Below the pieces are notes generated by a model, which saw nothing but the letters and a program-made list of their open reading frames with translations, did not search any database and had not been told where the DNA came from. The translations under genes and the position numbers were made by a program. A DNA stretch of 64,000 nucleotides, taken from contig CATKXV010000010.1 in the NCBI GenBank assembly GCA_949840955.1, positions 1-64,000 of the forward strand. The letters are read 5' to 3'. Below, in pieces: positions 51,407 through 53,400 of this stretch (the first letter of the stretch is position 1; each line of letters begins with the position of its first letter). The DNA is from an uncultured Anaeroplasmataceae bacterium. GTDB lineage: Bacteria; Bacillota_I; Bacilli_A; Acholeplasmatales; Anaeroplasmataceae.

Positions 51407-52609
51407 TTAAAATAATCGAATATTTTCACTAATTCTTTGATCAATCAAACCAAAAGCAGCTAAAGGCCTTGCAAGAGCTTTAAAGAATACAAACAGTAAT
51501 ATGCTTTGAGGAAGTAAATATAAGATGTTTTTTGGAAGTGCCGTTAAAATGATGTAGGTTTGATAAGCATCCCAATCTAAGCTATAAATGATTTTCCACC
51601 AAAAGGCACCCAAAACCACATTTACGAAAAGATTAACAACAACTCGTGCAATAAAGCAGTTAGCAAAGCTGATTCTCTTTTTGTAAAAGCATACTCCATA
51701 GGTAAATCCAGCCATCATAGCATCCAAGGTATATCCCAAGAAAAATACACCACTTGTATGAATAAAATACCCTAAAATATCAGAACAAAACCCAATAAAT
51801 AAACCACAAACTGGACCATATATCCAACAGATTAAAGCAAAAAATAAATAGGTAAAGCCTAAGCCTAGGCTTCCAAAGCCTGAAGGAATTGGTAAAAGCT
51901 TACATATCAGCATACATCCAAATAGTGCACTGATACTACACATTTTTTTAACATGCTTTGTAAAGGAAATCGATTCCTTCCAATAGGATTTATGAAAAAT
52001 AGAGGTAAAAATATTCTCATTATCCTCTAGCCTGCCCTCATCCTCTTTACCCAAAAATGCATATAAAGAAAGACTGCATAGCCAAAGCGCTGCTCCTATT
52101 CCTAGAGCTATTCCCCCCATAATCCAAGGATTGTGGTTGTCAACAAGCTCAACGGTTTCAAAGCTTGTATCATACTCTGTATATCCTAATATTAAATTGA
52201 AATAATTTTTTACTCGATTTAGGCTTGGATTAACCTTACCTGTAGTTGAACTCACAATATTAGGAAAAAATCTTTTTTGTATTCTCAATTCAAATCTATC
52301 ATTTCTTGAGGTAAGCCTTGCTGTTTTGAGCATTTCCTTATAGTCAATTTTGGCATAGCTTATCTTTTTATAAGTAGAATCCGTTTCTGCCAACTGATTA
52401 TTCTCATCTATTTTTTTAAAAACCTCTGTATAAAATGCTTCATCTAAAATGAGATTGGGTTCTTCTTGCGTTGCTTTAAAGCAATAGACATAGGATGCTT
52501 GATATGAATTCACAAAAAATTCAGTAACAAAATAGCCGGCAAAAAAGCATACAAGCAAAAAAATTAAAATAAAAAATTTATAACGTCGGATTAATTTAAG
52601 AAAACTCAT
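51407..52609 (-). CDS. folT: Membrane domain fused to an ECF-type folate S component
   Basis: 400 aa. Residues about 1-195 are TM-extracytoplasmic-TM (helices 11-33 and 162-186; about 125 residues outside), a layout like Wzz-type chain-length regulators. Residues about 220-390 match an ECF S component (six helices; GFGSLGLGFTYLFFALICWIYGP and FLGYTLDAMMAG are FolT-like). A THF riboswitch upstream makes folate the expected substrate. AAGGAGGTC precedes the ATG. S components are normally about 170-200 aa. Energy-coupling subunits are not in the window. Confidence 0.82.
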   Translation of the reverse strand: MSFLKLIRRYKFFILIFLLVCFFAGYFVTEFFVNSYQASYVYCFKATQEEPNLILDEAFYTEVFKKIDENNQLAETDSTYKKISYAKIDYKEMLKTARLTSRNDRFELRIQKRFFPNIVSSTTGKVNPSLNRVKNYFNLILGYTEYDTSFETVELVDNHNPWIMGGIALGIGAALWLCSLSLYAFLGKEDEGRLEDNENIFTSIFHKSYWKESISFTKHVKKMCSISALFGCMLICKLLPIPSGFGSLGLGFTYLFFALICWIYGPVCGLFIGFCSDILGYFIHTSGVFFLGYTLDAMMAGFTYGVCFYKKRISFANCFIARVVVNLFVNVVLGAFWWKIIYSLDWDAYQTYIILTALPKNILYLLPQSILLFVFFKALARPLAAFGLIDQRISENIRLF

Positions 52610-52647
52610 AAATAAAAGACCTCCTTAAGAGATCCACCATATACTAT

Positions 52648-52737
52648 ACAGCGGATGCGAAAAATCACCGCCACAAAAGTGTTCGTCAATATCAATCACC
52701 CATGATAAAGCACTTAACGCAATTTTTCTTTTTCTGT
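52648..52737 (-). ncRNA. Tetrahydrofolate riboswitch (folE motif)
   Basis: The minus strand has the diagnostic core: GCGTTAAGTG, then GGGTGATTG, GACGAA, and GGCGGTGATTTTTCGCATC with CCGCT. The ends pair (ACAG 52734-52737 region with CTGT 52648-52651). This order matches the THF riboswitch, which turns folate transport or synthesis genes down when THF is present. It sits between the promoter region and the FolT fusion's ribosome site (52619-52626). Confidence 0.9.
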
Positions 52738-52834
52738 TCAATGGATTGATTATATATTATATAAGGAAAAATAACAAGCCTTAATTTAAAAAATCCACAA
52801 TTTAAAATTTAAAAGCAATCCAATATTCTTCTTA

Positions 52835-52884: not shown

Positions 52885-53400
52885 ATGAATGAAGTCCGTG
52901 AAATTGTTACTAAGGCAGTAGTAGCTAAAGGTAAAAAGGCTATGCATATAACACATAGTATTAATACAACAAAGCATCCCTATTCAGTATTAGGATGCTG
53001 GATCATTAATCATGAGTTTGAAGCAACTAGAAACAATGACCTTGTAGACATCAATGGCGAATTTGAGGTTAATATTTGGTATTCTACTGAAGAAAATTCA
53101 AGAACCGATGTTTTAAGAGAAAAGGTAGCTTATAAAAAGGATATCAAAGTGAAACGCATTGTAAATGAATATTTAAAAAATAGCGATGATGTGTTAGCCA
53201 AAATCTTAAAGCATCCTACAGTAACGAATGCCAAAATCATTGATAACGAAATCAAACTTGACATTGACTTAGAAATCTTAGCTGAAGTCATTGGTGAAAC
53301 AAAAATGCAAGTAACCGTGTTTACGCCAGTTGTTAATGAAGACGATGACATTGATGATTTAGATATTGAAGTTAATGAAGATTTTTTAAATGATAAGTAG
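52885..53400 (+). CDS. cotE: Spore-coat morphogenetic protein CotE
   Basis: 171 aa. Builds the outer spore coat. VREIVTKAVVAKGKK and VLGCWIINHEFEA near the N-terminus, and NIWYSTE in the centre, are the CotE signature. The C-terminal tail is acidic, as in family members. GGGAGGT precedes the ATG. Transcribed alone, divergent from the FolT fusion. Confidence 0.93.
   Translation: MNEVREIVTKAVVAKGKKAMHITHSINTTKHPYSVLGCWIINHEFEATRNNDLVDINGEFEVNIWYSTEENSRTDVLREKVAYKKDIKVKRIVNEYLKNSDDVLAKILKHPTVTNAKIIDNEIKLDIDLEILAEVIGETKMQVTVFTPVVNEDDDIDDLDIEVNEDFLNDK

Follow-up and report, generated by a model that had tools for sequence, protein, structure and literature searches.

The S components of group II ECF transporters are viewed as small, solitary subunits; they compete with one another for a common module and topple in the course of transport. 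In the known systems (Wzz, Wzc, KpsE), PCP domes form oligomers. In the folate S component EfFolT, the pterin is contacted by Asp64, Phe80, Thr81 and Arg26 and the glutamate by Asn117, Thr121, Arg142, Lys36 and Lys145, and both Lys36 and Arg142 are required for tight folate binding (PMC4525288). A survey of the S-component fold describes AxxxA as a contact motif in helix 1; its passages on fusions place these in the receptor branch (5TMR proteins) and mention none for transport S components (PMC11109136). KpsE, a PCP of class 3, encloses the ABC transporter KpsMT; its dome follows TM1, with the last strand directly before TM2, and it bears a helical-hairpin crown (PMC11041684). A literature search returned no paper linking ECF transporters to Wzz or to Anaeroplasmataceae, and the combination of a FolT with a putative Wzz-type dome, as proposed here, was not found described elsewhere.

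The window analysed is a stretch of 64,000 nucleotides from an uncultured Anaeroplasmataceae bacterium, and the locus of interest within it is, on balance, best explained as a THF-repressed FolT with a PCP-type platform dome. The features of the locus are as follows.

52647..52738, reverse strand: THF (tetrahydrofolate) riboswitch aptamer, RF01831 (cmscan 48.7 bits, gathering score 36, full model 1-99)
52632..52656, reverse strand: alternative 11-bp hairpin AUCCGCUGUAU/AUAUGGUGGAU (MFE fold)
52618..52634, reverse strand: Shine-Dalgarno-hiding hairpin GAUCUC/GAGGUC, covering GGAGG
51407..52609, reverse strand: ORF of 400 aa, putative PCP-like domain fused to a folate ECF S component
52511..52579, reverse strand: TM1, residues 11-33 (hydropathy; model helix 11-33)
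52130..52510, reverse strand: outer domain, residues 34-160, predicted beta-alpha-beta-beta-alpha-beta, putative Wzz/PCP-type dome without helical hairpin
52043..52129, reverse strand: TM2, residues 161-189 (hydropathy and model)
51944..52042, reverse strand: conserved cytoplasmic linker, residues 190-222, family motif DNxxIFKTPFHKxYW
51470..51943, reverse strand: folate S component core, residues 223-380 (TIGR04518, structures, site residues)
51410..51469, reverse strand: C-terminal tail, residues 381-400, family pattern LIDxxIxxNIxxF (alignment)

The ORF at 52609-51407 (-) is a single open frame with an ATG start and GGAGG about 10 bases before it, and was matched in 60 of 100 relatives. The original prediction had described a THF riboswitch, a folate S component and an added TM-outer-TM domain that made the architecture unusual. 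The riboswitch was confirmed by its score above the gathering threshold, the S component by the matches given below, and the added domain, together with the unusual architecture, by hydropathy, the model and the relatives. A search for the same domain order recovered it in many genomes from at least five families of one class; since the TM-outer-TM plus S component layout recurs across many independent genomes, an artefact of sequencing or reading frame can be dismissed.

Residues 219-379 match TIGR04518 at 75.1 bits (cut-off 60), a family matched by all 48 aligned relatives, and the best solved structures by sequence are the FolT entries 9kym, 4huq and 4z7f (E 1.7e-12 to 5.6e-11). A fold search with the model, which is weak to modest over the full protein (mean pLDDT 56.6), placed 4huq first (Z 12.4, 158 residues, 3.5 A), followed by 7nnt, 5d3m, 5jsz and 4z7f (Z 10.8 for 4z7f). 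Hydropathy and the model give the S part six helices, reaching about residue 385. From these matches we consider the window protein very likely a folate S component. It shares with FolT (EfFolT 4z7f, LbFolT 4huq, TIGR04518) the six-helix S fold and five site residues, the equivalents of Asp64, Phe80, Thr81, Asn117 and Lys145 of EfFolT being Asp277, Tyr293, Thr294, Asn330 and Lys360. It departs from FolT in its N-terminal TM-dome-TM and C-terminal tail, in the replacement of Lys36 and Arg142, and in a longer L1 loop, PSGFGxLG. At the AxxxA position of helix 1 the window protein has SALFG and its relatives a small-xxx-small pattern, e.g. AILFA or SILFA.

The alignment of the 48 relatives shows the Asp, Tyr/Phe, Thr/Ser (one Met), Asn117 and Lys145 positions preserved and an Arg in helix 5 invariant, while the Lys36 position is Gly and the Arg142 position Ser, Ala or Glu in every one of them. 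As the equivalents of both Lys36 and Arg142 are replaced throughout, the precise substrate might be something other than folic acid. It is possible, if the lesser possibility, that the S component transports a different derivative of folate or pterin, e.g. reduced folates or short polyglutamates, a reading favoured by the loss of these two residues in 48/48 relatives with retention of the pterin contacts (Asp, the aromatic residue and Thr) and of Asn117. However, all 48 still match TIGR04518 and a THF riboswitch lies upstream. Moreover, the plain FolT proteins of the sister families f19 and f22, which have Lys or Arg at the Lys36 position and often Ser at the Arg142 position, are in many cases encoded downstream of THF riboswitches, those with Ser likewise. 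Judged by these residues, a folate of some kind would be by far the likeliest substrate, with a handling of the glutamate tail that differs from that of EfFolT.

The host's own genome (97% complete) contains no member of the dihydropteroate synthase family PF00809, which is present in 13 of 14 control genomes, and folate is thus presumably imported from outside. As for FolT of group II ECF transporters, the genes of the ECF module lie apart from folT: EcfT and a pair of EcfA genes are clustered on a different contig (G000:C7, about 114-117 kb). The S part would bind folate outside and be powered by this shared EcfA-EcfA'-T module. The genome encodes only three PF12822 S components, including FolT. 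The presence of the same outer domain on other S components of the genome was considered and rejected, the other two PF12822 proteins being plain; one of them is encoded beside a gene resembling type III pantothenate kinase.

The leader of the gene carries a full RF01831 aptamer ahead of a folate S component gene, an arrangement shared by many relatives, and differs from described THF riboswitches in nothing essential, translational control being likely. In the window 37 bases separate the riboswitch from the 400-residue ORF, and an Rfam scan found a THF riboswitch before most folT copies of the long-form relatives. The 11-bp pairing AUCCGCUGUAU/AUAUGGUGGAU would occupy the 3' strand of the closing helix of the aptamer. 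In eight relatives, 96.6% of cells were paired in this hairpin, vs 26-50% when it was slid along the alignment; for the GAUCUC/GAGGUC hairpin the values were 100% vs 50-69%, with three pairs preserved via one-side changes. Covariation in these eight relatives was not significant for the 11-bp hairpin and, for both hairpins, too sparse for proof. With THF bound, the closing helix would stay and the downstream RNA would form the GAUCUC/GAGGUC hairpin, hiding the Shine-Dalgarno sequence (OFF), whereas in the absence of THF the 11-bp hairpin would capture the 3' strand of the aptamer and free the Shine-Dalgarno sequence (ON). The leader is, from these pairings, probably a THF-OFF translational switch. 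Variant arrangements were seen in other genera: genus g5 has two tandem THF aptamers before folT (G014:C9:8233-8439, 40.8 and 36.4 bits; G020:C23:9065-9279, 41.8 and 36.2 bits), and genus g3 has reduced aptamers before folT that cover model positions 11-86, fall under the gathering score and are without the outer closing helix (L022 2781-2850, L023 1390-1459, L037 3178-3249).

The outer domain was called unknown in the original prediction, a description that we can now replace by that of a probable Wzz/PCP-type dome without its helical hairpin, as indicated by hhalign, profile and fold matches. An alignment of 43 N-domains of FolT fusions (A2) was compared by hhalign with the Wzz-like proteins of the same genus, giving a probability of 98.2% and a score of 89 over a homologous span of residues 1-192; the score in reversed and shuffled controls (60 shuffles) never exceeded 21 (best shuffle 20.6). 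The outer part alone gave 96.4% against these proteins. Against Wzz/BY-kinase-like proteins the N-domain gave 92.7% over 169 columns with both TM helices in register; the outer part alone, without the TM helices, showed no significant match to true Wzz/BY-kinase domes (0.4%). A profile search of 100 genomes with A2 found, besides FolT, the N-termini of proteins of 383-486 aa (E down to 2.5e-15), which among those read have a TM-dome-coiled coil-TM layout. The possibility that this set represented further vitamin transporters was rejected, its members being Wzz-like and having a coiled coil. One of them is encoded in the host's own genome (L100 1355-2692, G000:C14), near dUTPase-like and glucose-6-phosphate isomerase-like genes and with no obvious capsule locus around it.

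PF02706 (Wzz) has no match in the window protein and weak matches in 8 of 48 FolT members; the best score of a FolT member lies in the N-terminal half of the G035 protein (E 1.8e-4, 22.2-23.3 bits). The own genome's Wzz-like protein scores 24.9-27.7 bits (cut-off 25.5) and most of the genus's Wzz-like proteins are themselves without a Pfam Wzz match; it is these proteins that form the homology bridge to Wzz. The Pfam search of the outer domain of the window protein, at E up to 10, gave nothing and the PDB profile search gave TM-driven noise only (best E 0.11), and a known binding or enzyme family was thus rejected. Structure prediction was run with three input sequences and for the N-domain yielded a weak model (mean pLDDT 60.7), with the order beta-alpha-(alpha)-beta-beta-alpha-beta between the TM helices; an alpha/beta dome was obtained and its top structural matches were Wzc (seven entries, Z 7.0-7.3), WzzE (5.8) and KpsE (5.0), although Z values under 8 can reflect a common arrangement. 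The helical hairpin, or crown, is missing, the outer domain having 127 residues without a coiled coil and its Wzz-like relatives a long extra helical region.

Each of these lines is inconclusive alone but they agree with one another, and on sequence and modelling together homology of the outer domain to PCP proteins appears highly likely. We speak of a PCP-like dome and not of a Wzz member because no FolT member reaches the Pfam cut-off of 25.5 bits, the crown is absent and no polysaccharide genes were found beside folT in the loci read. The window FolT shares TM1, the alpha/beta dome pattern and the TM2 topology with the Wzz-like proteins of 383-486 aa from the same genomes, which differ in having a long helical hairpin and an EEGISLGEIF leader, both absent in FolT, the dome of which is instead fused to a transporter subunit. 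Like KpsE, the window FolT has a TM-dome-TM arrangement with the last dome strand directly before the second TM, and would likewise be in contact with an ABC transporter; KpsE, however, belongs to an exporter as a subunit of its own and bears a crown, while the window dome is part of an importer subunit and a cage is only conjectural here.

The fusion was found in at least five families of one class, including f2, f11, f21 and f32, and in no genome sampled outside that class. A tree built from 64 S parts places the long form together with five short forms from genus g4 in a single branch (100/100 support), which adjoins the plain FolT of f19. The latter already carry an SPFxKxYW-like linker motif near their N-terminus, which indicates that the module was inserted before an existing N-terminal helix. 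Sequence and tree show that, in an ancestor of several families, a probable Wzz/PCP-type module (TM-dome-TM, with its crown hairpin lost) was joined before the N-terminal helix of FolT, and the simplest history is probably a single gain and one sure loss, in genus g4. In the five short g4 proteins the dome is gone and the two TM helices are kept, joined by a short loop; the gene directly adjoins another gene upstream, with no THF riboswitch even at a relaxed threshold. A dome remnant upstream of the short gene was sought and rejected, as another gene directly adjoins and no remnant was found. G028, assigned to the same genus, has a long FolT copy under riboswitch control. G355 was rejected as a second dome loss and not counted, its ORF running off the contig end.

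As PCP domes are oligomeric elsewhere, self-association or spacing is the likeliest remaining role for the FolT dome. By analogy, the dome would most likely self-associate FolT or fix its position on the outer face of the membrane, in the manner of PCP domes, with the linker inside leaving the S part free to topple and the dome binding no folate; we put forward this oligomerising or spacing platform tentatively. A more elaborate form, in which the domes cluster FolT in a ring around, or feeding, one ECF module, as KpsE does with KpsMT, is a distinctly speculative extension of the same analogy. If true, such a ring would be a novel mode of organising how S components compete for a common ECF module. 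That the S fold tolerates a large outer attachment is shown by this natural FolT, with its putative capsule-export-type dome and two additional TM helices; the fusion also makes it straightforward to test whether S components are clustered or fixed in position, with the dome-less genus as a natural deletion control.

Other roles have to be weighed against this platform. It is rather unlikely that the added module is a relict with a role limited to membrane insertion or stability of the S component. The short g4 hairpin, in which both TM helices outlive the dome, and the fast divergence of the dome sequence (mean pairwise identity 21%, vs 52% for the S core) fit such a relict, but the reading frame of the module has been preserved across long divergence in at least five families and the domain is still recognisable in 43 sequences.

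The original prediction had also suggested a link to the cell envelope. This part is possible, since relatives of the domain organise envelope polysaccharide export, but the gene neighbourhood points to no such link. The folT neighbours in the loci read were ribosomal protein, MATE, AraC-type, GNAT-like and CotE genes and, in other genera, pflB, priA, fmt and uracil-DNA glycosylase-like genes. A specific version, in which the dome would mix with full-length Wzz-like proteins and so tie FolT to the polysaccharide or wall machinery, draws on the Wzz-like proteins of those genomes being the closest relatives of the dome and on FtsW/RodA in the genome, which makes a wall plausible. We regard it as unlikely in view of the lack of polysaccharide genes mentioned above and of the distribution of the partners: G004 (96% complete) has the fusion and no Wzz-like protein was found in it, while G023 and G034 have a Wzz-like protein but a dome-less FolT, which argues against an obligatory pairing.

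The other suggestion of the original prediction, capture of folates by the dome and their handing to the S component, was not supported and is very improbable: although the dome is fused to a folate S component on the folate-binding side, and the two missing glutamate-tail contacts could be replaced by something else, it is the least conserved part of the protein, ranges in length between 108 and 223 residues and, among 43 N-domains, shows near-invariance at Phe115 only and no invariant polar residue, the low identity and lack of a conserved pocket arguing against capture, its relatives are PCP-type proteins, and the dome-less genus has an unchanged core with identical changes in the folate site, so that the dome does not supply the missing contacts.

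Several further features of the surroundings were recorded. SAM riboswitches (RF00162) lie close behind folT, downstream in L009, L022 and L023 and also in L034 and L064, and genus g6 has fmt and metK genes after folT; by gene content, the predicted setting is a one-carbon neighbourhood.

The host order is best known for wall-less bacteria. A CotE spore-coat gene (PF10628, E 3.6e-47) adjoins folT at 52885-53400 (+) of the window, and the own genome has Spo0A (151.7 bits) and FtsW/RodA/SpoVE (357 bits), with G000:C4:142257-142568 and G000:C11:49432-50481 listed with CotE. These genes suggest a walled, perhaps spore-forming bacterium.

Elsewhere in the window, an L10 ribosomal protein leader (RF00557, 46166-46286 (-), 73.5 bits) precedes the L10 and L7/L12 genes, as expected, and the segment 53528-58259 (-) encodes two adjoining MacB/FtsX-like ABC proteins of 873 and 705 aa, each with ATPase and permease in a single chain.
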